Origin: a virus
DNA: 49,850 nucleotides
Virus record (IMG/VR): IMGVR_UViG_3300009788_000132
Span: 1-49,850 of that record
Reading direction: 5' to 3' (one strand)
Under the pieces are notes generated by a model. That model ran no database searches and had not been told where the DNA came from. It saw only the letters and a list, made by a program, of their open reading frames with translations. The position numbers were made by a program, and so were the translations under genes. Positions 2,873-25,235 of this stretch are shown piece after piece (the first letter of the stretch is position 1; each line of letters begins with the position of its first letter).

Positions 2873-4047
2873 TTAAAGTGTTCTTATATTTGGTTTAGGC
2901 TTCCTTGCATGAGTATAAATCGCATAGCGTTTAGTGTCCATTAAGTGATCATCGAATTTTTCAGGCTCGTCTAAAATATCACCATTTTTATTTTCTGTCC
3001 ACCTGTAAGATTGACGTTCTTTATTCAAATCTTCATTTTCTGGTCTGGTATAAAATACGCAATTTTTACAAAAATCAATACCATCTTTTACATTTTTCTC
3101 TGCCGGCTGAATATTATACCCGGCTCGAAGAATCTCCTCAATTCTGGCAGGCTCTGCCGAATCAGCATAAATGATAGCGTTCTTATCTATTTTCTGACTT
3201 TCCAACTCTTTTATTAAGTCATTATTTGTCATTTTACATTTGTAAAGCCTTTGAGTTAAATAGTATTCCTGGTCTTTTATACCAATTTCAAGTAATGCGT
3301 TTGGGTTATTAAATCCGAAATCAAGGCCATAAATGGTTTCGTGAACTTCTGGGTAATTGTCCAGCATAACGTAGGGAGCATATATAATATTTTGCAAAAT
3401 TCCCCATTCACCTTCAAGATAGACTTTACGTAAGGCCGGATCACGGATTGATTGCAATACCTGGATATATTTATCTTCGATATAAACATTATCTTTATAG
3501 GTAGATTTAAATACATAGGCATCTTCTTTCGGATTGAGAAAAAAAAATCATTAAGCCAATGATGTTCGTTTATGGGATTGAACGATAATAACATTTGATA
3601 ATTTGTATTTGACTTACCTCTCATAAGCAGATCAATATCAAGGAAATCCTTATAGTTCAAGTCGGTTGTTTCCTCCGACCACTCTTTTGTTATACCTTCA
3701 GTTGATTTTGTTTTTTCGGGATCATCTAAACCAAGCGCAAAGGCTTCCGATCCAGTCGCCGGGCAATTTATCTTCATTTCGGTATTATTAAACTTGAAGT
3801 AGGGAGAAAGCTCATATTCAAAGATCAAATCTTTAAGTAATTGGAATTGCGATTTTCTTACAGTTCTTAATACTTTTCTGCAAAGCAAAATCCTTTCTCG
3901 TGCTTTCTGATTCAACATCCACAAGATTACTTGTTGCGCATTGTAATACGATTTCCCGGAGCCACGACCGCCGACCAAAACGATATAACGTTTCTTAATA
4001 TTTAGCAAATGCTGAAAATTTGGATTAATCGGTATCTTGATTTCCAT
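2873..4047 (-). CDS. terL: Large terminase subunit, PBSX-type, split by a frameshift at a 9-base homopolymer
   Basis: The large terminase is the packaging motor and headful nuclease. The N-terminal frame (from 4047) holds the ATPase, with Walker A GGRGSGKS at residues 26-33 and a Walker B-like ITKEWSEE at about 119-126. The nuclease half continues in another frame, read from about 3540 down to 2873, with the RNase H-like GLDFGFNNP, YADSAEPARIEEI and DHLMDTKRY motifs. The frames meet at nine A on the plus strand (3539-3547); one more base, or three fewer less one, restores a protein of about 390 residues. Cause: sequencing error, real mutation, or slippage on T9. It overlaps the small terminase gene by 23 bp. 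Confidence 0.9.
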
Positions 4048-4483
4048 TGTTTCCCATTAATTCTTCTTTTTCAAAATCATATTCTTCTTCCCTTGACGGT
4101 GTTACGATTTGTATTTTAATAATTCCATCAAGTGAATTATCTTGTTTAACGGGAGCATCTAAACCTAAATACCGCGCTCGGCGTTCCATGATTTTTAATC
4201 CCCTGTCGATTGCGGAAAGATGCCCTTGCGAGATTGCTTTCCATATTGAAAGCAATATTGCATCTAATCTTTCCAATTCGAGTTTTAAAACTTCTTTGGC
4301 CGGTTCCTCAATTATTTGCATCATAGCACTCATAACTGCTTGAGCCGCACCAGAAGGATTTTTATAATTTAAAGTATCTGCAATCTTTTGATATGTCGCG
4401 CCGGCCTTTCTTAATTCTAAAGCCTGTCTTTGCCTCTCTTTGGCGGATATCCTTCTCGGTGATGTTTTACTTTCAGTCGGCAT
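4025..4483 (-). CDS. terS: Small terminase subunit
   Basis: This 152-residue protein has an N-terminal helix-turn-helix-like region (ERQRQALELRKAGATYQKIA, residues ~16-35) followed by a helical region and an acidic tail. That layout fits small terminases, which recognise packaging sites and recruit the large subunit. Its place directly upstream of, and overlapping, the large terminase supports the call; sequence alone would only say HTH protein. Its start overlaps the end of the glycosyltransferase gene. Confidence 0.75.
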   Translation of the reverse strand: MPTESKTSPRRISAKERQRQALELRKAGATYQKIADTLNYKNPSGAAQAVMSAMMQIIEEPAKEVLKLELERLDAILLSIWKAISQGHLSAIDRGLKIMERRARYLGLDAPVKQDNSLDGIIKIQIVTPSREEEYDFEKEELMGNNGNQDTD

Positions 4484-5396
4484 CTTTTACATCCGTTTTA
4501 TTTACATTGTGCCACTGTTTATAAACTGTTGTTAATTCTTCACTTTTGATTTCATCGATTTGTTTTAAATCAATATCAAATTCATTTATTTTGGGCAATA
4601 TATTAAAATCGATTTCTTTTTTACGTTTCAATGGTGTATCAAATCGCCTCCAAGTATACTTTACTATGTGTTGAGGTCTACCGTATCTACGGCCAACAGA
4701 AATCACGCCCGGCCACATTCTTTCAAGTGATCGAGCCATCTTAAGGCGACCATCCCCTTTATATAAAACATCCGTATTCCCACCCTTCATTTTCATCGAA
4801 GCCACTTTATCGATTGAAAAAATATTCATCAATATAGTACATAAACCACCGGAAAGAACTTGTAAACAAAGATCGGTATCTTCATTATATCTACCACGCC
4901 AGCGATAAGGAATATCATTTTTTACTAATAGACAAGAATAAACGTGATTATTTAATCTAAACGGCGGCAACTTCTTCCCAGAAACGATATTCATATCGTA
5001 ATTCAATCCCGCAATCGCAATATTTTCATATCTATCAATAAACGTTTCTGTTATTTTTAAGGCATAACCAGAATCACACCTAATACGCTTCTCGTGCCAT
5101 CTACGATAAATTTCTCTTATATTATCATCGAATATCCAATGTCGTGAATGACCTTGTTTTATAGAATGCTGCCATACCCAATTTCGCGCCGGTATTGAAC
5201 CCAAGCCTAAATTACTGAATGGTAGAGTATAAATATATTCTTTCCCTAAACGGTTTTTATATTCTTCATATTCCTGTTGCTCAACAACCAGATGGAAAGG
5301 CACTTCATCTTTTATTAAAAACTTGGCAGTTAAACAATTTTCAAACCGCCCTTTGGATATTACATAAATCGGATATTTAGGTATATATTTTTTCAT
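4473..5396 (-). CDS. TET-associated-type glycosyltransferase (DNA base modification)
   Basis: The 307-residue sequence matches my knowledge of the TET-associated glycosyltransferase (TAGT) family: IYVISKGRF near the N-terminus, VVEQQEYEEY, the HWIFDDNI motif at 86-93, the conserved RGRYNEDTDL at 167-176 and KGGNTD around 204. Known members are predicted to add sugars to modified phage DNA bases, often hydroxymethylated pyrimidines, with nucleotide sugars as donors. Predicted metal and donor binding would involve DDN and EDTD. No TET/JBP dioxygenase or pyrimidine hydroxymethylase is visible in the window, so the acceptor base is unknown. It is ATGA-coupled to the ParB-domain gene upstream and overlaps the small terminase gene downstream. 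Confidence 0.8.
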   Translation of the reverse strand: MKKYIPKYPIYVISKGRFENCLTAKFLIKDEVPFHLVVEQQEYEEYKNRLGKEYIYTLPFSNLGLGSIPARNWVWQHSIKQGHSRHWIFDDNIREIYRRWHEKRIRCDSGYALKITETFIDRYENIAIAGLNYDMNIVSGKKLPPFRLNNHVYSCLLVKNDIPYRWRGRYNEDTDLCLQVLSGGLCTILMNIFSIDKVASMKMKGGNTDVLYKGDGRLKMARSLERMWPGVISVGRRYGRPQHIVKYTWRRFDTPLKRKKEIDFNILPKINEFDIDLKQIDEIKSEELTTVYKQWHNVNKTDVKDAD

Positions 5397-6043
5397 GGTT
5401 GAAATCTCATCGAGGATGGATTTTCTTTATCTTTTTTCGGCCACCAAGTAGATGTAATCGTTCCTTCGCCATCAAGCCCTATTTCTTTTTGGAAATTTAA
5501 ATGATCTTTTATATTCCGAAAATTGATTGTAATTTTATTCCTATACTCCCCTTCCTGATATTCAGGCATACCCATCCATTCCATTGCGGCATCAAAATCA
5601 TTAATTTCCGAATTATCACGAGTAATATATACCAAGTTTGCTAACATCATTTCATCGTAGCCCGTTCCCAGTAATCCATTTAAATCGTTTTTTACTCCCT
5701 TCAATAAATCACTCAATAACCTATCATCTTTCATTGACAAATTAGACATTTCATTATCACCTATAAGCAATTTCATTGCTTTCGGATCATCAAAATTATA
5801 TTTAATTTTATAAATAGGTATTTTATTTAAATCTAAATCTTTGGCCGCTTTAACAACCCCGTGACCGGCCAGAATAAAATTGTCATTAGAAATAACTACG
5901 TTTTTATAAAAACCAAAATCCGTCAAAGATTTTTTAATATGTTTTAATTGATCTTCCTGATGTTCCTGATAGTTTTGTGGATGTTCTTTTAATTTATTTA
6001 TATCAATCCATTGCAAATCGAATTTCCAATTATTTTCTACCAT
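5393..6043 (-). CDS. ParB/Spo0J-type N-terminal domain protein
   Basis: In this 216-residue protein, residues ~11-90 look like a ParB/Srx fold domain: INKLKEHPQNYQEHQEDQLK, then GFYKNVVISNDNFILAGHG and VVKAAKDLDL. The AGHG variant is common in phage ParB-like proteins near modification genes. The rest ends with TSTWWPKKDKENPSSMRFQP and has no recognised DNA-binding domain. ParB domains bind CTP, or in some relatives act as nucleases. The gene precedes the glycosyltransferase with an ATGA overlap, a neighbourhood known for phage DNA-modification loci. A link to the parS-like sites elsewhere in the window is possible but unproven. Confidence 0.8.
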   Translation of the reverse strand: MVENNWKFDLQWIDINKLKEHPQNYQEHQEDQLKHIKKSLTDFGFYKNVVISNDNFILAGHGVVKAAKDLDLNKIPIYKIKYNFDDPKAMKLLIGDNEMSNLSMKDDRLLSDLLKGVKNDLNGLLGTGYDEMMLANLVYITRDNSEINDFDAAMEWMGMPEYQEGEYRNKITINFRNIKDHLNFQKEIGLDGEGTITSTWWPKKDKENPSSMRFQP

Positions 6044-7348: not shown

Positions 7349-7852
7349 TCAATTAACTCGAAAAGCTAATCCAGCTATAAAGATTGGTTTTTTGCCATCG
7401 ACAGTAATAGCTGCCACTTTTAAATAAACTAAATCGGGATTAATCCAAATTCTAAAACCTCCCAGGAAATTAATAAAAGAGTTAAAACCATTCATTTCAA
7501 GTATCGCATATTGGGGATTGAGAACTAAATGAATCCGAGGATTAAACATCCAAAGGAATTGAACACCCAACGATGTATAACCCAAACTATCAGCGCCCGC
7601 AGCCGGATTAAAACCGACTTCCCATGTCGCGCCGGTAAGAATATTTTCGGAAAACCAATAATCAAGATTAAGCTGAACTGAATTATAATCCGGCGAAAGA
7701 TTAGCAGTTGAATCTGCTTGTTGGAATGTTTTACCAGTTATAAACCCGGCATTCAATTCTACATTACCCCAGACTTTCCGCTGATCCTGTGCAAACACAA
7801 CGACCGATAGAAATAATAATACTGTAACAATAATTAATATAAATATTCGCAT
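7349..7852 (-). CDS. Exported, probably outer-membrane beta-barrel-like protein (167 residues)
   Basis: A Sec signal peptide (IFILIIVTVLLFLSVVVFAQ) is followed by alternating polar and aromatic segments: WGNVELNAGFITGKTF, NSVQLNLDYWFSENIL, SLGVQFLWMFNPRIHLVLNP, YLKVAAITVDGKKPIFIAGL. That pattern is typical of an amphipathic beta barrel, though short for one. It has its own promoter at 7881-7909. A phage-encoded outer-membrane protein could block receptors or change the host surface; that is inference. Confidence 0.6.
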   Translation of the reverse strand: MRIFILIIVTVLLFLSVVVFAQDQRKVWGNVELNAGFITGKTFQQADSTANLSPDYNSVQLNLDYWFSENILTGATWEVGFNPAAGADSLGYTSLGVQFLWMFNPRIHLVLNPQYAILEMNGFNSFINFLGGFRIWINPDLVYLKVAAITVDGKKPIFIAGLAFRVN

Positions 7853-7930: not shown

Positions 7931-7937
7931 GTTAGGC
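7931..7937 (-). other. attC remnant (R''-type box only)
   Basis: GCCTAAC in leftward reading includes the TAA stop of the last cassette gene. No matching stem or R' box follows, so the array seems to be cut here. With only seven bases the call depends on context. Confidence 0.35.
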
Positions 7938-8225
7938 TTTTTTGTTTTTGATAATATCGTTAACAAGCCCTATTAATTTTAATTTTGCTTTTACAGCCAC
8001 CCTATCGCTTCGTTGATACATCCCTTCAACGTTGCAAATTAGGGAATCGCTATTAGCACCAGACGGAGCCATACACAATCTTTGCCCATCACAACCACAG
8101 TAAGGAAAAGAACAGTTACGAAAATCAGCTTCTGTATTACCGTATTCGTCAACCTCTAATTTGCAGTGCCGACATATTTCGTTGGGTTCATGGTCAAACG
8201 CATATTCACAATGATTATCAGTCAT
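7932..8225 (-). CDS. Cys-rich cassette protein (97 residues)
   Basis: This protein has paired Cys/His motifs: CRHCKLE at ~18-24, then CSFPYCGCDGQRLCMAPSGA and an ICNVEGMYQRSD segment. The CGCDGxRLCMAPSGA block is one I associate with small phage-type proteins that probably bind zinc. AAAGGAG precedes the ATG. The stop lies in an R''-type attC box and no full attC follows, so it is the distal end of the array. Confidence 0.6.
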   Translation of the reverse strand: MTDNHCEYAFDHEPNEICRHCKLEVDEYGNTEADFRNCSFPYCGCDGQRLCMAPSGANSDSLICNVEGMYQRSDRVAVKAKLKLIGLVNDIIKNKKA

Positions 8226-8256
8226 AATATTAATTTCTCCTTTAAATCAAGTTCGC

Positions 8257-8319
8257 GCCTAACTCTACATGCACCTGAAACCGCAAAAAACGCGGTTCAG
8301 GTGATGCAAGTTGTTAGGC
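8257..8319 (-). repeat. attC-like site, 63 bp
   Basis: In leftward reading GCCTAAC (R'') and GTTAGGC (R') bracket CACCTGAACCGC / GCGGTTTCAGGTG, a 12-bp stem with one extra base, around a short T-rich loop. Spacers are AACTTGCAT and CATGTAGA. GCCTAACAA is a classic attC opening. It sits 2 bp after the stop of the 8322-8573 gene. Confidence 0.8.
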
Positions 8320-8321
8320 GG

Positions 8322-8573
8322 TTAATGGCATTTGCACAATCCGCCGTTATAGGCATACGGCCCTTCATTTCCTCCTGGATCATTTTCATTGTAATGTTCC
8401 CCTGGAATGCCATACCAATATTCACTATCTCCACAGCAATCACAAACAGAAACATCGTGATCTTCGTTGTCAATAATCCATTGTAGAATCTCGTCATGGT
8501 CTTTATCCTCAGCCCAATCACCGATTTGGTCTATGTTTAAAAATCCAGTACTTTCGCATCTGGTGCATGTCAT
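8322..8573 (-). CDS. Zinc-finger-like cassette protein with CDCCGD motif (83 residues)
   Basis: Starts at 8573 (MTCTRCESTGFLN), chosen because AAAGGAG lies 5 nt upstream; an earlier start would run back through the attC. CTRCESTGF resembles half of a DnaJ-type zinc finger. Then come an acidic helix, CDCCGDSEYWYG, a PGEHYNE segment and a final CKCH. The CDCCGD...GEH pattern recurs in phage and cassette hypotheticals. It probably binds zinc; the role is unknown. Confidence 0.65.
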   Translation of the reverse strand: MTCTRCESTGFLNIDQIGDWAEDKDHDEILQWIIDNEDHDVSVCDCCGDSEYWYGIPGEHYNENDPGGNEGPYAYNGGLCKCH

Positions 8574-8600
8574 TTCTTCTTCTCCTTTAATCAAGTTCCC

Positions 8601-8659
8601 GCCTAACAATCGCCTCAAGCCGAACCAAAAAACGGTCGGCTTATGCTAATCCATTATAT
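8601..8659 (-). repeat. attC-like site, 59 bp
   Basis: Leftward: R'' box ATATAAT (degenerate), ATAAGCCGACC pairing with GGTTCGGCTTGA around a T-rich loop, and R' box GTTAGGC. The stop of the 8654-8860 gene lies within R''. The L boxes (AAGCCG and CGGCTT) are nearly those of classical aadA-type attC sites. Confidence 0.75.
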
Positions 8660-8860
8660 GGCTTGTGCCCTTTCTAAAGCATAGCAGCCGCGAATATCTT
8701 TAAACCATCCGACGGCTGTATGGCCTCCAAGCAATGTTGCGCCGTTCGTCGTTTCGGTTTCAATGAAAGTTCCATCATCCATTTCTACTTTCACCTTTTG
8801 ACCTATTCCGTACTTTTCATTCCAGGCAGACGCCAGCTTTCTTTGGTTCATTTTCTTCAC
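8654..8860 (-). CDS. Cassette protein of a small GGHTAV-type phage family (68 residues)
   Basis: GTG start at 8860 with AAGGAG 8 nt upstream; the next ATG is spaced too far. The sequence KVKVEMDDGTFIETETTNGA then LLGGHTAVGWF and CYALERAQAI looks like a short all-beta domain common among small phage proteins. No function is established to my knowledge. The stop is in the R'' box of the following attC. Confidence 0.6.
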   Translation of the reverse strand: MKKMNQRKLASAWNEKYGIGQKVKVEMDDGTFIETETTNGATLLGGHTAVGWFKDIRGCYALERAQAI

Positions 8861-8886
8861 AATTTTGTCTCCTTATAAAGTTCGCA

Positions 8887-9023
8887 ATCTAACTACAAAT
8901 TAAGCTGACAAAAGGGGCGGGATACTTATCAAAGACGGCTTCTCCCGTAGGCTATCCCAACCGCTACCCAAAACATTACTGCATGGCGCGACCCCTTTTG
9001 CAGCTTATCAATGTCCATTAGAT
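8887..9023 (-). repeat. attC-like site, 137 bp, long central arm
   Basis: Leftward: R'' ATCTAAT, then TAAGCTGCAAAAGGGG pairing with CCCCTTTTGTCAGCTTA (16 bp with one extrahelical base), then spacer and R' GTTAGAT. An unpaired base in the L arm is typical of attC sites, where it sets strand polarity. The central part holds further short inverted repeats. Confidence 0.8.
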
Positions 9024-9269
9024 GGCTTTGTCTGCAAATTTAATCATGTTTGGCGGAAAGCAATCACATTTCCCATCTTCAAATTCGACAACACCATTGA
9101 CACATGAGCCATCTTCGTCCGCGAATGTTCCCCAACAGTGGAAATGTCCTTTACGTTCTTTTACAAAGCAAGGCCGCAACCCAACTACCGCTGCACCCGA
9201 TTTTAGGGCAGCAAGCTTTCTATCTAACTTTTCAGGTAATTCGTCAATTTGTTTTTGTAAATCATTCAC
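9018..9269 (-). CDS. Cassette hypothetical protein (83 residues)
   Basis: GTG start at 9269 with AAAGGAG 5 nt upstream. An N-terminal charged helix (DLQKQIDELPEKLDRKLAAL) leads into KSGAAVV, then a Cys/His/Trp-containing beta-rich part (GHFHCWGTFADEDGSC, GKCDCFPP). The 21-bp DNA encoding KSGAAVV also occurs in the 9324-9566 gene. The stop is in the R'' box. The function is unknown. Confidence 0.55.
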   Translation of the reverse strand: MNDLQKQIDELPEKLDRKLAALKSGAAVVGLRPCFVKERKGHFHCWGTFADEDGSCVNGVVEFEDGKCDCFPPNMIKFADKAI

Positions 9270-9282
9270 ATTTTCTCCTTTA

Positions 9283-9313
9283 CCCTAAAACGGGTGATCT
9301 TTGTCTGTTATAC
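9283..9313 (-). other. Degenerate attC remnant
   Basis: Leftward GTATAACAGACAAAG matches the R'' half of the site at 10427-10486 (GTATAACGGACAAAG), but only a 4-bp ACCC/GGGT hairpin follows and there is no clear R' box. A deletion between R'' and R' would explain it. Confidence 0.4.
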
Positions 9314-9323
9314 CGCACCTGCT

Positions 9324-9566
9324 TTAAAACGCTGGTGCGGTATCATTAATATCTTCAATATCTTCGTCATCTTCATTCCCTACTAAATTCCACCACTTTT
9401 TGCACTTAGAACACTTACAGTCATAATCGTGGTTACTTGCTTCATCAAAGTCTTTTAATTCTTGGCCACTAAGCGGTATAACTACCGCTGCACCCGATTT
9501 GTGGGCATTGTCAGGGTAAACTTTCATTTTTTTATCCCAAAAAATTTCCGCTACTTCGTCAAACAT
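9324..9566 (-). CDS. Cassette hypothetical protein with CxCxxC motif (80 residues)
   Basis: Start at 9566 (MFDEVAEIFWDKK) has AGGAGG 5 nt upstream; an upstream TTG would fall inside the attC. It contains HKSGAAVVIPLSGQEL, then CKCSKCKKWWNL, a possible metal-binding knuckle, and an acidic C-terminal tail. The stop lies 10 bp before the R'' remnant, and the last codons form a 10-bp inverted repeat with the following DNA. Confidence 0.55.
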   Translation of the reverse strand: MFDEVAEIFWDKKMKVYPDNAHKSGAAVVIPLSGQELKDFDEASNHDYDCKCSKCKKWWNLVGNEDDEDIEDINDTAPAF

Positions 9567-9575
9567 TTTTCCTCC

Positions 9576-9695
9576 TTTTAACCTGAGCAAAGGGCGATTG
9601 GGGAACTTGGTAGAGTCCCCGGGCGGATCCCATCTGTCGCAAACCCCTTACTTTCGTAAGCAATGCCCTTTCCAGGTTATCAACGTCCATTAGGT
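9576..9695 (-). repeat. attC-like site with weak R' box, 120 bp
   Basis: Leftward: R'' ACCTAAT, then TAACCTGGAAAGGGC pairing with GCCCTTTGCTCAGGTTA with extrahelical bases. The usual spacer and GTTRRRY box are missing: GTTAAAA directly joins the L' box and runs into the next ribosome binding site. It is probably an inactivated site. Confidence 0.6.
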
Positions 9696-9884
9696 GCTTT
9701 CTGATTTATTCGTTTTGTCAACAAAAATACTTACGGATAAACAACTCTTTTTTGTAACTCCCTCGTTATCGCCAAATGCTAAAGAAAATCCTTGTTTTCG
9801 ATTGTTAGCGATAACATTCATCTTCGCGTCCGGATTATATCGTTTAAGTTTTTTAATAAACTGCTTGACGGTGATTTCTTCCAT
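9690..9884 (-). CDS. Small cassette protein, VKQFIKKLKRYNPDA type (64 residues)
   Basis: The N-terminus MEEITVKQFIKKLKRYNPDAK, followed by a hydrophobic strand, is a frequent pattern in small phage hypotheticals that begin with a helix ending in P-D-A. AAAGGAG precedes the ATG. The TAA stop is part of the R'' box of the next site. The function is unknown. Confidence 0.6.
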   Translation of the reverse strand: MEEITVKQFIKKLKRYNPDAKMNVIANNRKQGFSLAFGDNEGVTKKSCLSVSIFVDKTNKSEST

Positions 9885-9894
9885 TGCTTCTCCT

Positions 9895-9930
9895 TTAACT
9901 CAAGTTTACACCTAACTCTACATCTCGCCG
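9895..9930 (-). other. Truncated attC (R' half only) absorbed into a gene
   Basis: Leftward GATGTAGAGTTAGGTG at 9923-9908 is nearly identical to the R' end of the site at 8257-8319 (CATGTAGAGTTAGGCG), including the spacer, and the AACTTGA...TTAAAGGAG that follows matches too. The R'' half is absent and the gene at 9895-10092 reads through it. Confidence 0.5.
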
Positions 9931-10092
9931 TTGAGTTGTATCTAATGCATCCCACAATATTTTGTTTTCGGATGTCAATTTTTTAATTTTTTCTTTTAAT
10001 TCTTCGATTTCGCTGTCTCTAAGTTCTTTTTGATATAATCCACCATCAATCAAATCACTAATTGCGTCTTCGTCATTTCCTGTGCAACTCAT
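9895..10092 (-). CDS. Coiled-coil cassette protein running through an attC remnant (65 residues)
   Basis: Acidic N-terminus (SCTGNDEDAISDLIDGG), then a coiled coil (SEIEELKEKIKKLTSENKIL). The last residues (RDVELGVNLS) are encoded by the R' half of an attC-like site, so the original C-terminus was probably replaced when the site was deleted. The ribosome binding site is weak (TAGGG). The function is unknown. Confidence 0.5.
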   Translation of the reverse strand: MSCTGNDEDAISDLIDGGLYQKELRDSEIEELKEKIKKLTSENKILWDALDTTQRRDVELGVNLS

Positions 10093-10108
10093 TTTATACC
10101 CTAATCCA

Positions 10109-10196
10109 GCCTAACAAGGCATCAAGCCGATGCCGGAAGATTAGGCATGTTAATATTTAGTTTTGTAGGGCACGTCTTATGCCCATTCCGTTAGAT
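10109..10196 (-). repeat. attC-like site, 88 bp
   Basis: Leftward: R'' ATCTAAC, GGCATAAGACGTGCC pairing imperfectly with GGCATCGGCTTGATGCC, and R' GTTAGGC. The L' box CGGCTTGA and its spacing to R' are classical. The central part is AT-rich. Confidence 0.7.
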
Positions 10197-10394
10197 TTCT
10201 CCGCTTAGTTTTATTACCTTCACTTTGCCTATTGTATCTCCTATTTCGTTTGAATGCAAGAACAACAGCCCTTTTTCGCCGCTAAGTATTTCATTAAAAA
10301 ACCACTCCTTAGCCTCCGCATCTTCATCGCCACCATGCACCGTTTTTGCATCATAGCATAATTCTATTTCAAGTTTTAAAGTTTTTTCTCTCAT
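10191..10394 (-). CDS. Cassette hypothetical protein (67 residues)
   Basis: ATG at 10394 (MREKTLKLEIELCYDA) is preferred over an in-frame TTG two codons earlier, because AAAGGG lies 7 nt upstream. The pattern HGGDEDAEAKEWFFNEIL followed by FLHSNEIGDTIGKVKVIKL looks like a compact alpha/beta protein and resembles hypotheticals common in phages and cassettes. The stop is in the R'' box. Confidence 0.6.
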   Translation of the reverse strand: MREKTLKLEIELCYDAKTVHGGDEDAEAKEWFFNEILSGEKGLLFLHSNEIGDTIGKVKVIKLSGEI

Positions 10395-10426
10395 ATTCAA
10401 ACCCTTTCATGTTGTGTCGCTCCAAA

Positions 10427-10486
10427 ATCTAACAACTCGTCAAGCCGACCCGAAACGACCGGGCGGCTTACCTTTGTCCGTTATAC
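10427..10486 (-). repeat. attC-like site, 60 bp, classical
   Basis: Leftward: R'' GTATAAC, GTAAGCCGCCCG pairing with CGGGTCGGCTTGAC apart from extrahelical bases, a short loop, and R' GTTAGAT. On the opposite strand it reads TCTAACAACTCG...CAAGCCGACCCG, close to aadA-type sites. This is the clearest site of the array. Confidence 0.85.
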
Positions 10487-10885
10487 CGCTCCACACAAAG
10501 GGCAATCTCCGAGAATATGTACATTGTCACATTCGTTAAGAGCTTCAAACCAGCCAACCCCGGCGTGTGACATTGCTAAGGAAATTCTTTCAAGGTAGGT
10601 CTGCGGTTCAAGCTCATAACCTTCAACACAGCTTGGCGGTATAACCAGGGCATCAACCTGAGCCTTGTTTTCGATGTTGTCGCCATTCTCGGTTTGTTTG
10701 TCATCTGTCATTGGCAGCTTCTCTATAAACCAGGTTGTGTTTTTATCTCGTTGTTTATTTGATACAAAATTGGCACTATCAATTTCTTTTCCCTTCGCTT
10801 CATATCCGCTTGAGTCAACTGTACCTAACACTTCACGCCCGGTTTCGCTACCCGCCTTAATGATGTAACCATATTCATAACTCAT
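10481..10885 (-). CDS. Cassette hypothetical protein ending in CPLCG (134 residues)
   Basis: The start at 10885 (MSYEYGYIIKAGSETG) has AAGGAG 7 nt upstream. A longer frame exists but would begin inside the attC and lacks a ribosome binding site. The middle is rich in Asp, Asn and Glu. The C-terminal part (YLERISLAMSHAGVGWFEAL, then CPLCGAV) looks folded and may hold one zinc knuckle half. The TAA stop is in the R'' box. Confidence 0.6.
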   Translation of the reverse strand: MSYEYGYIIKAGSETGREVLGTVDSSGYEAKGKEIDSANFVSNKQRDKNTTWFIEKLPMTDDKQTENGDNIENKAQVDALVIPPSCVEGYELEPQTYLERISLAMSHAGVGWFEALNECDNVHILGDCPLCGAV

Positions 10886-10985
10886 AATATAACTCCTTCT
10901 TGAAATTTTTCTATCCGACAAATTGGGATTTCGTTTTATCAAGTCTACAATATTTAAGGGATACGGTTTCATGTGTCGCTGCAAA

Positions 10986-11120
10986 ATATAACCATGAATT
11001 AACCTAAGCAAAGGGAAGCCGGATTTGCCATCCAACTCATTTAAGAAATTGAAAGCGCTTTCAAGGTCTTAAAACATCTTGCCAGATGCCCTTTACCAGG
11101 GTTATTAATGTCCATTATTT
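10986..11120 (-). repeat. attC-like site, 135 bp
   Basis: Leftward: R'' AAATAAT, TAACCCTGGTAAAGGG pairing with CCCTTTGCTTAGGTTA at both ends of the arms, and R' GTTATAT after a 7-nt spacer. The R' bases match the R'' box of the downstream cassette (GTATAAC), as expected for a circular cassette that inserted here. The centre holds the palindrome GAAAGCGCTTTC. Confidence 0.7.
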
Positions 11121-11291
11121 GGAGCTTTTGGCGATTAATTCTTTTCGTTCCATATCGCACATCTTTACATACTCCTCATCAATATAGGGCTTTACCCCCT
11201 CAAGGACAAACGCTGCTGTCAGGAGATCAAGTTTTTCAATCTCCTTTCGGAAAGAACTAATTATTAGATTAATTGGTTGATCCTCAAACAT
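11115..11291 (-). CDS. First gene of the cassette array, hypothetical (58 residues)
   Basis: The ATG at 11291 (MFEDQPINLIISSFRKEIEK) is preceded by AAAGGA. The chain continues LDLLTAAFVLEGVKPYIDEE and looks helical. The TAA stop falls in the R'' box of the first attC-like site. It is the gene nearest the promoter. No family was recognised. Confidence 0.6.
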   Translation of the reverse strand: MFEDQPINLIISSFRKEIEKLDLLTAAFVLEGVKPYIDEEYVKMCDMERKELIAKSSK

Positions 11292-11315
11292 AACAAATTC
11301 CTTTCTTTTAGATAA

Positions 11316-11344
11316 AATAAAAACAACTCAAGTATAAATGTCAA
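11316..11344 (-). promoter_or_regulatory. Promoter for the cassette array (Pc-like position)
   Basis: Leftward TTGACA (11344-11339), 17-bp spacer, TTTATT (11321-11316). It overlaps the end of the intergenic gap after the 11355-11768 gene and would serve the first cassette 25 nt downstream. The -10 matches TATAAT at four of six positions. Confidence 0.5.
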
Positions 11345-18620: not shown

Positions 18621-19835
18621 ATGAAAACAGCCGAAAAACACATTAACATAATCAACCAAATTAATTCAACACGCTTTAGCGTCTTGGCTTTTCGTGCATA
18701 TCCCAGGTTTGGATTTTATCGCAAAGGCGAATTATATCCTTCCGATGTTTTCGATATTTCTTTATTTCTTATCGCCTCATCATTCTGGAATTTCTTTGCA
18801 TTTTTCTTTTTCGCTTCAAGAGTTAATGTTGCAACCGGCGCATATTTACCACAAACAGCGGTGATAATTTTGGCCGGAATTATTTCTATTGCCGTGGCAA
18901 AATCACTCCGGGATCAGTCTTTTGAGAATGTTAAAAATCACTTTCTATTTTTACAATTCAAGAAAGTGCCTTCCGCTAAAGAATTGATTTTGAATAGCTT
19001 CAAATATTCTTCAAAATGGATTTATGCCCCCTTGCTGTTGGGATGTTTTGGCGCTACGATATTTGTTTATGATGTTATCAAAAGCGATTCTTTGACAATC
19101 GAAAATATTGATAATAGGCTTGTGGAAATATCCGGTGAAATTCAGCGAAGCTATGGCCGAGAAGAAAATGACGTGAATCTTAGAGTCCAAGATGCAATAG
19201 TCTTGAGACAATTTAATAAAATTTCAATAGGCAAGGGAAAAACTTCAACCGACAAAGCAAATGAAATTGATTCGATAAGGGTTTTCTATTCCGGGGTTAG
19301 AGATATTTTAAATTCGGAGAAAGCTGATTTGAGAATTGCAAGACAAAAAAGCAAACCTGCCGGCATGTTGTCTGATTTGGTAGATTATTTAGGTAGATTA
19401 TTTATTGCGTTTATAGTGGGATGTTTATTGTCGCTTTCAATTGATGTGTCAGGTATGAGAAAGGTCTTTTGTTCATTCAGTGTCGCTTATTCTCGGTTAT
19501 GGTGTTCGGGTATCGAATATTATATTATAAATAATAGTAAAACTGAACAGCAGGACAAGGAGAAAGTGAACATAAATGAACAGTTGGAAGATGAACACTT
19601 TGAACAAATTGAACAGGGATTCGATGAAGAAATTGAACAGTTTGAACAATACGAAGATGATGAACTGAACAATTTAAGTAATAAACAAAAAACATTCTAT
19701 AAGCGATTCATGGAAGAAGATGAAAACGTGTCACAGACAGCCAAAGGATTAAGAATAAGTAGGAACACCGCCTATAAAAGAATTGATGAATTAAAAAAAC
19801 TCGGTTTGTTAAATGGAGAACTTAAAAATCAGTAA
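18621..19835 (+). CDS. Membrane protein with C-terminal helix-turn-helix (404 residues)
   Basis: Four likely transmembrane helices are visible: around 46-66 (SLFLIASSFWNFFAFFFF), 78-95 (AVIILAGIISIAVA), 132-152 (WIYAPLLLGCFGATIFV) and 257-277 (LFIAFIVGCLLSLSI). Residues ~310-360 form an acidic Gln/Glu-rich linker. The end (VSQTAKGLRISRNTAYKRID then ELKKLGLLNG) is a winged-helix/HTH like the one that reads nucleic acid or closes plasmid transfer proteins. A membrane-tethered HTH is unusual in a phage. It lies upstream of the coupling-protein-like ATPase; both could act at the membrane. Confidence 0.65.
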   Translation: MKTAEKHINIINQINSTRFSVLAFRAYPRFGFYRKGELYPSDVFDISLFLIASSFWNFFAFFFFASRVNVATGAYLPQTAVIILAGIISIAVAKSLRDQSFENVKNHFLFLQFKKVPSAKELILNSFKYSSKWIYAPLLLGCFGATIFVYDVIKSDSLTIENIDNRLVEISGEIQRSYGREENDVNLRVQDAIVLRQFNKISIGKGKTSTDKANEIDSIRVFYSGVRDILNSEKADLRIARQKSKPAGMLSDLVDYLGRLFIAFIVGCLLSLSIDVSGMRKVFCSFSVAYSRLWCSGIEYYIINNSKTEQQDKEKVNINEQLEDEHFEQIEQGFDEEIEQFEQYEDDELNNLSNKQKTFYKRFMEEDENVSQTAKGLRISRNTAYKRIDELKKLGLLNGELKNQ

Positions 19836-19862
19836 CAAAAATAAAATGAAAAGGAAATTTCA

Positions 19863-20081
19863 ATGGGTGAAATAGCAGATGATATGTGCGAAGGAAGATG
19901 TTGCTCATGGTGCAATGTTTACTTTCAAAAAGAGCATGGTTATCCTGTAGCTTGTGAGAATTGTTGGGATGAATATGAAAACTCATGGGTTGCCGTACTT
20001 GAGGTTGTTGAATTAATGGAAAATCATCCTCAACTATATAGGCAGGTGGGTGTTAAAAAAGCAATACATAAAGAATTGTAA
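19863..20081 (+). CDS. Small zinc-finger-like phage protein (72 residues)
   Basis: MGEIADDMCEGRCCSWCNVY, then GYPVACENCWDEY gives two Cys pairs spaced like a zinc ribbon. The EIADDM...GRCCSWC...GYPVxC pattern is widespread in phage hypotheticals. AAAAGGAAATTTC precedes the start. The function is unknown. Confidence 0.65.
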   Translation: MGEIADDMCEGRCCSWCNVYFQKEHGYPVACENCWDEYENSWVAVLEVVELMENHPQLYRQVGVKKAIHKEL

Positions 20082-20086
20082 AAATT

Positions 20087-20437
20087 ATGGATTTTTCTGG
20101 CATAGCAAAAGTAATCAGAACCATAATAATATGGACTTTATTGGTTTTATTTTTAGGTTCAATTCTCGATATAAGTTTTGAGAAATGGGTAAAATTTACC
20201 TTGCCCAAACCATCAATAAAAATTGAAGAAAGTGCTTCACGTGAAACACCAGTAAAAACCGTTTATCTAATCGACAAAAAAGAAGTCACTGCGGAAGAAT
20301 ATTTTAAATGGGCTGAAAAGGAATTAAAGAAAACATCTCAAAAGCCTCCGCGAAAAGGCAAAGGATTAAAGTTCACCGGCTCCGGTCGAACTCGGAGCAC
20401 TACAAAAGGAGACATTCATTATGGGAATGGAAGATAA
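20087..20437 (+). CDS. Single-pass membrane protein with basic C-terminus (116 residues)
   Basis: An N-terminal hydrophobic helix (IRTIIIWTLLVLFLGSIL) is followed by a linker and a strongly basic tail (RKGKGLKFTGSGRTRSTTKG). A parS-like 16-mer lies inside the coding sequence at 20233-20248. No family was recognised; with the membrane neighbours it may belong to one envelope complex. Confidence 0.6.
   Translation: MDFSGIAKVIRTIIIWTLLVLFLGSILDISFEKWVKFTLPKPSIKIEESASRETPVKTVYLIDKKEVTAEEYFKWAEKELKKTSQKPPRKGKGLKFTGSGRTRSTTKGDIHYGNGR
20233..20248. promoter_or_regulatory. parS-like site (15 of 16 positions)
   Basis: TGCTTCACGTGAAACA differs from TGTTTCACGTGAAACA only at the third base. It lies inside a coding region, as many chromosomal parS sites do. 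Confidence 0.55.
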
Positions 20438-20492
20438 ACAAATTTGCAAACATTGGAATGATGAAAACGAAGATACAGGGAAGGGAATCTAA
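20421..20492 (+). CDS. Possible 23-residue peptide
   Basis: AAAGGAG lies 9 nt ahead of the ATG. The peptide MGMEDKQICKHWNDENEDTG ends one base before the next start. It overlaps the preceding gene by 17 bp. It may be real or only a coupling frame. Confidence 0.35.
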   Translation: MGMEDKQICKHWNDENEDTGKGI

Positions 20493-20493
20493 T

Positions 20494-20718
20494 ATGAAAA
20501 CTGAAAGTATTATAGTAATGCGAGTTGATGAAAACAACAACCGCGAATATAGACCCTTGGGCCTTTTTCACATTTTTAAATGTTATGATGAAGAAAGAAA
20601 GGATATGATTCAAGAGGCTTATATCTCAATAGAACAAAGAAAACTTACTGAAAATGTAGCGAATTTTTTGGCTGAAAAATATAATGTTGAAGTAATTTGG
20701 ATTGCAGAAAATATATGA
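20494..20718 (+). CDS. Hypothetical protein (74 residues)
   Basis: The start at 20494 (MKTESIIVMRVDENNNREYR) is preferred over an earlier in-frame ATG because GGAAGGGAA lies just upstream. The chain is alpha/beta (SIEQRKLTENVANFLAEKYN). Its stop overlaps the next start (ATGA). No family was recognised. Confidence 0.55.
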   Translation: MKTESIIVMRVDENNNREYRPLGLFHIFKCYDEERKDMIQEAYISIEQRKLTENVANFLAEKYNVEVIWIAENI

Positions 20719-22091
20719 GAAAACTTATTAGAAACGCCTCTACATTAATATATTATTGTATAGCTTTTTCGATTCCGGTATTAGTTCATATATACTATAA
20801 CTTTACGGTTATCCCAAATCCAAGCGATGTTTTAAATCCCGGCGCATTCTTTAAAATCTTTTCCCTCATTTGGATGGTTGCTCTTTTGGCTTATGGCTTT
20901 TATAAAAAGTGGCTTGGTTTTGAATGGTTTAAAAAAAGCAATTTTGAAGAACTATTTGATAACGCATGTATGGAACTAAAGTTTTTTAAATTCAATCCTA
21001 ACAACGAAGACGATATTTTATTCCCCGTGTCGGTAAAGGGAAATACTGCACTAATAACAACCAAAGGGCAAACCGAAGCCTTCTTAAATAGGGTGCAAGA
21101 CTTTAGTGATGCAACTGGTTTAATGCTATACCGTGTCGGCAGAGCATACCATCCCGAAAAAGGAGAATTGCCGGGAATAATTAAAATGAATTTTACGGAT
21201 AAAGGATTAACTACAAACATAAAATTCTCGGATATACCGAAAACAAAATTTGGTGATCTGGTAATAGGTAAGACCGTTGATGGATGGATGACTAAAAACA
21301 TAAACGATTTAAGATATACGCTTGCATTTGGCGAACAAGGCAGCGGTAAAACATCATTCTCCGAATCCATGATGTTACAAGTTTATCAATTTGGATTACC
21401 GCTTATTCTAATGGATTTTAAAAATAACGAAAGATACGGGCAATTAAACAAGATAGGGAATATCATTACCACCGGCGACAAATGGGAGGCATATCATATA
21501 TTAACTGTTCTCGATCAAATATCCGCCTTTAGAAGTAGGCAAATAACCAGGCAGGGGAAACAACATTATTATCAATGTAAACCCGCAAAGGTTGGAGAAA
21601 GAATAATCCGTATAAATTATCCGATCATTTTATTTATTGATGAATTATATCTTGCGTTAGAGGGGAAAAAAGGTGCATCTGCAATGCTTTTAAACGGATT
21701 TACGCGCCTGGCTACACAAAAACGATCTCAAGGTATTTTCGCGCATTTTATTACTCAATATCCCGACAAACAAACATTAGAGGGCGGTTTTAGACCTAAC
21801 ATTTCAGCCTATTTTGGATTCCGTTCTGAGGATGCGGTAATGAATATGATTTTTAATAAATATAAAGATTTAAAAATTTCTCAATATGCTAAGGGACGGA
21901 TGTTTACCGATGCGAATGTTGACCTTGAACAAGTTCAATCTCCTTATTTGAAGGAGGGGCAATTGAAACAAAGAATGAAAGAATTAAACAAAAACGATTC
22001 AAATCTTATCCGATACCTTAAAAGTTATGTCAAAGCGAAACAGGAAGAACATAGCAAAAAACAAAAACCGGTTAAAATGTTAGCCATATGA
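20715..22091 (+). CDS. FtsK/HerA-type membrane ATPase resembling conjugative coupling proteins
   Basis: 458 residues from the ATG that overlaps the upstream stop. Two N-terminal transmembrane helices (STLIYYCIAFSIPVLVHIYY and FSLIWMVALLAYGFY) precede a soluble ATPase with Walker A GEQGSGKT at about 206-213, LILMDFKNNERYG, and Walker B IILFIDELYLAL at about 302-313, followed by QGIFAHFITQYPD, the sensor-like segment. This layout and length fit FtsK-like DNA translocases and coupling proteins such as ConQ of ICEBs1. No relaxase or type IV secretion genes are visible. Phage roles could include DNA transfer, packaging-related pumping or exclusion. Confidence 0.7.
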   Translation: MRKLIRNASTLIYYCIAFSIPVLVHIYYNFTVIPNPSDVLNPGAFFKIFSLIWMVALLAYGFYKKWLGFEWFKKSNFEELFDNACMELKFFKFNPNNEDDILFPVSVKGNTALITTKGQTEAFLNRVQDFSDATGLMLYRVGRAYHPEKGELPGIIKMNFTDKGLTTNIKFSDIPKTKFGDLVIGKTVDGWMTKNINDLRYTLAFGEQGSGKTSFSESMMLQVYQFGLPLILMDFKNNERYGQLNKIGNIITTGDKWEAYHILTVLDQISAFRSRQITRQGKQHYYQCKPAKVGERIIRINYPIILFIDELYLALEGKKGASAMLLNGFTRLATQKRSQGIFAHFITQYPDKQTLEGGFRPNISAYFGFRSEDAVMNMIFNKYKDLKISQYAKGRMFTDANVDLEQVQSPYLKEGQLKQRMKELNKNDSNLIRYLKSYVKAKQEEHSKKQKPVKMLAI

Positions 22092-24071: not shown

Positions 24072-25235
24072 ATGCAAAATTATAAATTCCATCCAATCGC
24101 CGATTGTTGGCCTTTGCTTGAAGGTATCGAATATGAACGATTAAAGGAAAGTATTACCGAAATAGGATTGTTACACGAAATAACTATTTTAGGAGAATAT
24201 ATACTTGATGGTCGCAATAGATACCGGGCTTGCCTTGAAACAGACACGGAGCCGAATTTTATTCTTTATACTGGCAAAGATGATGAAAGCAGTCTTATTG
24301 ATTTCTGTATAGCTTGCAATGATAATAGACGGCATTTAACGACAGGGCAAAGAGCAATGATAGCTGCGGATTTGGCGAATATGAAACGAGGCGGTGATGG
24401 TTCTAATCAATACAAAGAAGCTAATAGCTCAAATGATCTATTAGCTATAGATCAAAAAACCGCCGCAAAAAAGATGAATATTTCTGTGCCGTCTTTAAAA
24501 CGAGCAAAGAACTTAAAAGAGAATGCGCCGCATTTAGCTAATAAGGTTATTAAAGGCGCAAATCTTAACAATGTCTTAAAGCAGCACAAAAAAGATGTGA
24601 AGGCAAAAGAAATTAAAAGGCTTATTTTTAAAGCAAAATCAAGTCGATTAGTTACAAATCTTTTCAATATAGATTTCAGGGATTTCTACAAGGATATTAA
24701 GTTTGATTTTATTATAACCGATCCGCCGTATCAAAAGAAATATTTAGACATTTACGGATATTTAGGTTTATTCGCAAAAGACTATTTGAAAGAGCATGGT
24801 TCCCTTTTGGTTATGTGTGGGCAATCATATTTACCTGAAATATACAAGATGATTTCTCAATCATTAACCTATAATTGGTCTTTGGCTTATTTGACTCCTG
24901 GCGGACAATCTGCACAATTATTTGAAAGGAAAGTTAATACATTTTGGAAACCCGTTTTATGGTTTGTAAATGGGAAATATAAAAAAGATTGGATTGGGGA
25001 TGTTTGCAACTCAAAAATTAATGACAACGACAAATCATTGCATACATGGGGCCAATCGCAAAGCGGAATGTCTGATTTAATGAATCGATTCTTAGAGCCT
25101 GGAATGGTAATTTGTGATCCGTTTATGGGGGCAGGAACAACCGGAATAATCTCAAAAGAATTAAATTGTAATTTCTATGGAATAGAGAAAGATGAAAAAC
25201 ATTTCAATGTGGCAAAGGAAAGATTAAATGCCTGA
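24072..25235 (+). CDS. ParB-domain / N6-adenine DNA methyltransferase fusion
   Basis: In 387 residues, the N-terminal ~90 look like a ParB domain (LLHEITILGEYILDGRNRYRA), then a helical HTH region (TAAKKMNISVPSLKRAKNLK). The C-terminal half is an amino-methyltransferase with TDPPY at about 215-219 (catalytic motif IV) and DPFMGAGTTG at about 349 (SAM-binding motif I), in the beta-class order. Such ParB-methyltransferases are common in phages; ParB parts may recognise DNA. It would methylate adenine, or possibly cytosine N4, in phage or host DNA. The end overlaps the nuclease-like gene by 8 bp. Confidence 0.85.
   Translation: MQNYKFHPIADCWPLLEGIEYERLKESITEIGLLHEITILGEYILDGRNRYRACLETDTEPNFILYTGKDDESSLIDFCIACNDNRRHLTTGQRAMIAADLANMKRGGDGSNQYKEANSSNDLLAIDQKTAAKKMNISVPSLKRAKNLKENAPHLANKVIKGANLNNVLKQHKKDVKAKEIKRLIFKAKSSRLVTNLFNIDFRDFYKDIKFDFIITDPPYQKKYLDIYGYLGLFAKDYLKEHGSLLVMCGQSYLPEIYKMISQSLTYNWSLAYLTPGGQSAQLFERKVNTFWKPVLWFVNGKYKKDWIGDVCNSKINDNDKSLHTWGQSQSGMSDLMNRFLEPGMVICDPFMGAGTTGIISKELNCNFYGIEKDEKHFNVAKERLNA

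Follow-up and report, generated by a model that had tools for sequence, protein, structure and literature searches.

A probable integrase-less integron cassette array of reversed polarity in a tailed-phage genome

Integron cassettes are the units by which bacteria swap resistance genes, and the origin of these cassettes, together with the way in which a gene acquires its attC site, is an old open question. It is raised afresh by IMG/VR virus record IMGVR_UViG_3300009788_000132, the whole of which (49,850 bases, here called the window) was analysed, and which carries a 3.5-kb minus-strand run of small genes (58–134 amino acids) with unusually structured gaps. Are these gaps attC sites, which way do they face relative to the genes, and do the units between them move? 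The region is very probably an integrase-less integron cassette array (a CALIN) of reversed polarity, carried by a tailed phage. An earlier reading from the sequence alone, the original prediction, had recognised attC cassette architecture here; the integrase-less array in a tailed phage stands, while the idea of ordinary cassettes, each with its attC behind the gene, does not.

A strict, sense-neutral definition of a site, requiring an R-box pair with at least seven base pairs between the inner arms and using DNA folding, gave five sites in the array against 0.08±0.31 (maximum 2) in 100 dinucleotide shuffles, and one site in the remaining 42 kb of the window. Looser inspection yields seven complete sites (s1, s2, s3, s6, s7, s8 and s9), one composite (s5) and one half-site (s4). 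Pairs of RYYYAAC/GTTRRRY boxes with inner stems occupy most of the array gaps, with DNA-fold z-scores for the sites of -2.2 to -6.4, and these boxes and stems, like the shared leaders, lie where the original prediction had placed them. Independent support for the predicted sites came from a DNA profile that was trained without the window, on 54 attC sites from viral and bacterial loci elsewhere, and that matched s2 (26.5 bits, E 1.3e-7), s8 (21.8 bits, E 3.7e-6) and s3 (13.9 bits, E 1.1e-3); its best score on a reversed-sequence decoy was E 0.43, and on the array-free relative discussed below (L008/L009) it gave nothing below E 1.5. No match reached the gathering scores in an Rfam scan. Searches of genome and viral collections with an attC-arm pattern gave 25 matches, all 25 lacking attC structure, a leader pattern gave one chance match (L010) in viral contigs, and an IntI search in nine chance-match genomes found Xer-like proteins only.

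Intergenic palindromes that merely resemble attC, such as terminators, repetitive extragenic palindrome-like elements or RNA processing hairpins, would also fold well and lie between co-directional genes, as all of these sites do. The boxes, the AACAA motif, the TCAAGCCGA/CGGCTTA inner arms and the extrahelical pattern nevertheless fit attC, T-runs are absent, the profile reaches E 1e-7, and a reversed form of the attC pattern used in the survey below occurs in none of 274 bacterial genomes, so we find this explanation hardly credible. The locus has what is expected of a CALIN, namely R''-L''-L'-R' boxes with extrahelical bases, at least two attC sites within a few kilobases with one small gene between them, and no integron integrase nearby. 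As predicted, the window encodes no PF00589 protein, nor a tyrosine recombinase of any kind, and therefore neither a phage integrase nor IntI; of the parts of a complete integron, intI is absent from the window, and attI and the promoter Pc were not identified in it.

The direction of an attC site, which is nearly palindromic, is fixed by its extrahelical bases and central spacer. The strand chosen depends on the first extrahelical base, and when bases and spacer are inverted together the crossover shifts to the other box (Bouvier et al. 2009, PMC2727003); Larouche and Roy (2011, PMC3053210) found T-N6-G to be optimal for IntI1. When the two arms were aligned in 23 known sites (class 1, Vibrio, Shewanella and phage TJE1), the extra bases lay mainly on the arm adjoining the gene stop in 19, and on the opposite arm in one. 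Of the eight window sites compared, six (s2, s5, s6, s7, s8 and s9) have them on the other arm only and none on the usual arm, s1 and s3 being ambiguous; three of the sites carry T-N6-G on the coding strand. The profile likewise favours the plus over the minus strand by 14–23 bits (26.5 versus 3.3 bits for s2, 21.8 versus 7.8 for s8), and s2 read on the plus strand, ATCTAACAACTCGTCAAGCCGACCC...CGGCTTA...GTTATAC, is a textbook class-1-like site. Extrahelical bases and profile strand thus agree that the window sites point against the genes: the canonical attC lies on the plus strand, opposed to every gene of the array, and the R' and R'' boxes of the original prediction are to be exchanged. By the same two measures the window attC sites do not lie in sense with their genes, as they would in canonical cassettes. 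Since each attC faces against its gene, the G|TT at which the attC strand crosses over is the gene's own stop codon, TAA|C.

Gene-sense polarity, with bacterial cassettes captured in the usual orientation and an attC behind each gene, was at first accepted from the GTT boxes and was dropped after the comparison of extrahelical bases. Read in the gene sense, the right-hand boxes are GTT in 8/8 and the left-hand ones AAT in four, and normal integron cassettes also often have the stop codon inside R''. This ordinary arrangement is contradicted by the extrahelical bases and the profile strand, leaves the last gene without an attC and the first without a boundary, and does not fit the mobile unit of other phages, in which attC precedes the gene and a stop codon forms the end; we regard it as unlikely. 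The reversed reading closes the bookkeeping, with an attC 5' of every cassette gene, boundaries at TAA|C and gene 11115–11291 as flank. On that reading the array comprises eight cassettes with nine genes behind one phage gene, so that nine of the ten small genes originally taken as cassettes keep that status and the first is probably phage flank; where a promoter had been predicted before it, a phage-style promoter-like element was seen. The features, in the direction of transcription, are:

11115..11291, minus strand: phage gene upstream of the array (58 amino acids), probably flank and not a cassette; no attC upstream, weak match to phrog_18766
Before gene 11115–11291: promoter-like TTGACA and the ribosome-binding site of that gene, identified by eye
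11115–11117: right-hand insertion boundary, the stop TAA of gene 11115–11291; crossover 11114|11115
10481..11114, minus strand: cassette 1, gene 10481–10885 (134 amino acids) with 5' attC s1 (about 10985–11120); R'' ATATAAC and its own end TTATAC are 6/7 complementary
10427..10486, canonical on the plus strand: attC s2, ATCTAAC-AACTCG-TCAAGCCG(A)CCC...CGGCTTA...GTTATAC, also in the strict scan; gene-strand extrahelical bases T-N6-G
10191..10480, minus strand: cassette 2, gene 10191–10394 (67 amino acids) with attC s2; own ends 7/7 complementary
10109..10196, plus strand: attC s3, asymmetric inner stem, left arm GCCTAACAAGGCATCAAGCCGATGCC
9690..10190, minus strand: cassette 3, genes 9895–10092 (65 amino acids) and 9690–9884 (64 amino acids), with attC s3 5'
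9910–9916: R'' box of half-site s4, which lies between the two genes of cassette 3
9308..9689, minus strand: cassette 4, gene 9324–9566 (80 amino acids) with composite attC s5 (9574–9695)
9476–9482: GTATAAC in the displaced arm of cassette 4
9018..9307, minus strand: cassette 5, gene 9018–9269 (83 amino acids, phrog_11000) with attC s6 (9179–9313); the gene's start codon and ribosome-binding site fall within the s6 loop
8887..9023, plus strand: attC s7, 137 nucleotides, 16-bp inner stem, one extrahelical base; z -4.6, strict scan
8654..9017, minus strand: cassette 6, gene 8654–8860 (68 amino acids, phrog_9165, E 5e-10) with attC s7
8601..8659, canonical on the plus strand: attC s8, GCCTAACAATCGCCTCAAGCCGAACC...CGGCTTA...ATTATAT
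8314..8653, minus strand: cassette 7, gene 8322–8573 (83 amino acids) with attC s8; own ends 7/7 complementary
8257..8319, plus strand: attC s9, GCCTAAC...GTTAGGC; fold z -6.4, strict scan
7932..8313, minus strand: cassette 8, gene 7932–8225 (97 amino acids) with attC s9; own ends 7/7 complementary
7931..7937, plus strand: left array boundary, G|TTAGGC, crossover 7931|7932; a candidate attI-like or secondary site of the phage
7349..7852, minus strand: flanking phage gene, 78% identical in the array-free relative

Read with its genes, each unit runs C-attC-GTTRRRY-leader-ribosome-binding site-gene-TAA. Complementarity between a cassette's own ends is 6, 7, 6, 5, 7 and 7 of 7, versus 5, 5, 5, 6, 3 and 7 within sites. 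Two of the cassette proteins have no relative among plasmids or phages. An arm of s6 is itself translated (KSGAAVV), and a second copy of this arm (9480–9507) is translated in frame in the adjoining gene.

The only close relative, viral contig IMGVR_UViG_3300022690_001761 (L008), was found through searches with DnaC and terminase; it is 77–85% identical in terminase, 84% in portal, 74% in head protein and 78% in the gene adjoining the array, and it lacks the array, which shows that the array does not belong to the phage core. The joined window flanks, ...TCCAAATAA|CTATGTGATAG...TACTTGACA, align with ...CTTAA|CTATATATTAACATACTTGACA of L008, the junction reading ...AAATAA|CTATGTG... in the window and ...CTTAA|CTATATA... 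in the relative. The two phages also differ in their replication modules, which have been swapped whole (L008:1–5200 against 11.7–17.3 kb of the window), with a primase-like gene in one and DnaC/RecT in the other, beside structural genes that are 74–85% identical. Absence from a relative would also follow if a piece of bacterial integron had been joined into a phage contig by misassembly or contamination, and the GC content of the array (about 0.39–0.43, against about 0.30–0.37 in most adjacent windows) could be read in the same way. However, the junction of the array is in frame, at a stop codon inside a co-directional phage operon, the cassette genes match phage families, and about 30 other viral contigs, many of them encoding terminase or portal, show the inverted architecture too; we give a chimera scarcely any credence.

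Whether the reversed polarity extends beyond this phage was addressed in viral contigs with the polarity-specific pattern TAACAAN4-7TCAAGCCGAN6-36CGGCTTR, which retrieved 58 viral stretches. Genes in these contigs were called by a simple gene finder of our own, which is crude and was correct on the window. Judged by the genes on both flanks, 34 viral sites are antisense and eight sense, and the same count in bacterial genomes gave four antisense and 17 sense, some of the four lying on contigs that are also filed as viral, L139 and L061 being identical. Deduplicated by contig or genome, the ratio of inverted to canonical is 30:14 in viruses versus 2:10 in bacteria (Fisher p 0.0023). The profile revealed arrays of four to eight inverted sites (eight in L093; also L068, L066, L082 and L090), and terminase, portal, head protease, polymerase and helicase genes are present in inverted loci. 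In the antisense direction 53 cassette proteins match 38 PHROG families, including DNA methyltransferases and a Mom-like modification protein, and opposite-strand open reading frames of the same intervals match none, which rules out an artefact of gene direction. Canonical viral loci show an excess of Zot-like and filamentous-phage genes and of integrases, and are best read as prophages near host integrons. Named phages showed no such attC beyond resistance-integron records. Reversed polarity appears to be the usual arrangement in tailed-phage DNA and the opposite of the bacterial one. Within the canonical viral set, Zot-like and filamentous-phage replication genes occur in L070, L078 and others, which may be filamentous prophages next to or within host integrons. 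Viral record IMGVR_UViG_2834908352_000001 (L101/L107), with over 20 canonical attC-like half sites in close pairs, is probably not viral but a misfiled bacterial chromosomal integron.

An indication that such units move comes from two cassette families that recur in unrelated flanks in other phage contigs, where homology starts and ends at AA|C, usually the stop TAA, and includes the upstream attC. In L061, L095 and L114 it runs from the C after the TAA of the upstream gene, through attC, leader and gene, to GCATAA|C, and in L077, L113, L117 and L137 it begins at AA|CGCTCCGCATAAGCC and ends at the final AA|C of the cassette itself. The first family encodes an 86-amino-acid protein with exact TAA|C ends in three unrelated contigs (L061:4551–4811, L095:2900–3160 and L114:6113–6373). 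The recurring unit is that predicted by reversed and not by usual polarity. End complementarity across the antisense gene in phage arrays is 2.77 of 4 against 2.05±0.13 when permuted (p<0.0002), and 3.37 versus 2.78 in bacterial arrays; no cassette gain or loss was seen among duplicate viral contigs. A different history, in which gene-less attC elements inserted singly behind native phage genes that never moved, would leave the same polarity through insertion behind TAA|C, and the gene of cassette 6 does have a 60% identical copy in the operon of another phage contig without any attC. Both shared units, however, contain a gene as well as an attC, and box complementarity extends across the gene, so that solo attC insertion seems very unlikely. 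The original prediction had proposed acquisition by integron-type recombination, and had looked to related phages for boundaries at its R' box: the nearest relative lacks the array, and the unit ends seen in other phages fall at TAA|C instead. For those phages IntI exchange is supported by precise unit boundaries and box complementarity; for the window phage we infer the same. Given the reversed attC, the window cassettes cannot be a simple sample of the cassettes of a bacterial integron.

Several observations weigh against a reversed, mobile array. Four R' boxes of the window on the plus strand are ATT and not GTT, and the gene-sense boxes on the opposite side are all GTT, which alone would favour the originally predicted polarity or site decay; the window sites are divergent, two are damaged, and they may now be inactive. 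The D6 repeat spans the proposed boundary. Since the replication module also differs in L008, the absence of the array there is not a clean single insertion. A narrow covariance model of Vibrio and Shewanella sites (R1) missed the window sites, scoring at most 11.7 bits against 14–16 for phage TJE1, and close relatives of the window attC arms or leaders were found in none of 84,980 genomes. In the survey, some contigs are ambiguous or mixed under the gene calls used, and canonical arrays occupy 14 of the 44 viral contigs. None of the 33 viral records with inverted sites encodes an IntI above the curated cut-off, so that supply by the host is the simplest reading.

A mechanism consistent with the reversed array would begin with a phage entering a cell that holds an active integron, the IntI of which would bind the folded coding strand of the sites and excise or insert units at TAA|C. 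Since every unit begins behind a stop codon and closes with one of its own, insertion would spare the genes of a packed early operon, and the new gene would be transcribed with the phage from the promoter upstream of gene 11115–11291. In a host attI a phage unit would face against the host promoter, just as a bacterial cassette placed here would run antisense to the phage operon; polarity would then separate the phage pool from the bacterial pool as a side effect, each being silent in the platform of the other. The polarity itself may stem from the fact that TAA followed by C reads on the other strand as G|TTA, the IntI core: in packed co-directional operons the harmless insertion points would lie just 3' of stops, and each unit would restore one. 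Alternatively, the reason may be the exposure of the coding strand as single-stranded DNA during transcription. Host supply of IntI, any present activity of the window sites and the reason for the polarity are all points that we infer. With moderate confidence we propose that tailed phages keep a mobile, reversed-polarity cassette pool of their own, moved by host IntI and insulated from that of bacteria, which would form a separate reservoir and possibly a birthplace of cassettes.

Phage-borne attC arrays are already known. Qi et al. (2023, PMC9892861) described phage CALINs in Tetrasphaera phage TJE1, Polaribacter P12002L and Pseudoalteromonas H101, with phage attC recombined by IntI1 in five of six tested cases; like the window, these are integrase-less attC arrays in tailed, including virulent, phages, but the two scored attC sites of TJE1 are in sense with their genes, and that study reports neither reversed polarity nor an exchange of units ending at TAA|C. 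Sedentary chromosomal and class 1 arrays (Vibrio, Shewanella and P1-borne class 1) share with the window the R and L boxes, extrahelical bases, variable loop and cassette-end complementarity, and many inverted phage arrays have attC sites about 90% identical to those of bacteria; the chromosomal and class 1 arrays differ in having genes in sense with attC and in the presence of intI, attI and Pc. The 'reverse' integrons of Treponema (PMC3607928) are also an anomaly of orientation, in which intI is turned and not the attC relative to the cassette genes. A laboratory equivalent of a reversed attC is found in the Vibrio cholerae repeat (VCR) mutants with co-inverted extrahelical bases and unpaired central spacer (PMC2727003), in which strand choice flips and the crossover moves; the arrangement in the window is natural and fixed in whole arrays. 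In open-licence papers we found nothing on inverted or antisense cassettes in phages, and the reversed-polarity phage pool appears to be new. A phage-specific pool with opposite gene–attC polarity would offer a testable answer on integron–phage interaction. Reversed polarity predicts the DNA strand used by IntI, and phages would exchange anti-host genes, such as those for methyltransferases and the Mom-like protein, as ready units without a recombinase of their own. Standard annotation expects the gene before its attC and would misread reversed arrays; reversed polarity explains why.

The rest of the window is that of a tailed phage, with genes for a portal, split terminase, head-tail adaptor, major head, minor tail and tape measure protein, together with a RecT-like gene, an exonuclease, a replication-initiation gene and a DnaC-like loader. 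Both ends of the record are open within the head module, the portal gene running off the left end and head genes lying at the right, so that a few kilobases are missing. Matches of terminase and capsid were distant and mixed, and gave no host prediction. The large terminase gene terL (2873–4047, minus strand; L008:10001–11172) consists of two overlapping frames that meet at a nine-T run (GATTTTTTTTTCTC). The window phage shares this arrangement with its 77% relative, which suggests conserved programmed slippage or frameshifting. At 4473–6043 a TET-associated glycosyltransferase (PF20691, E 8e-44) adjoins a protein with a ParB-like nuclease domain, and the pair are likely DNA hypermodification genes. 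A large membrane/helix-turn-helix protein and an FtsK/SpoIIIE-like ATPase at 18621–22091, together with the absence of an integrase, possibly point to a phage-plasmid lifestyle, and at 24072–25235 a ParB-like N-terminal domain is fused to an N6/N4 DNA methyltransferase.

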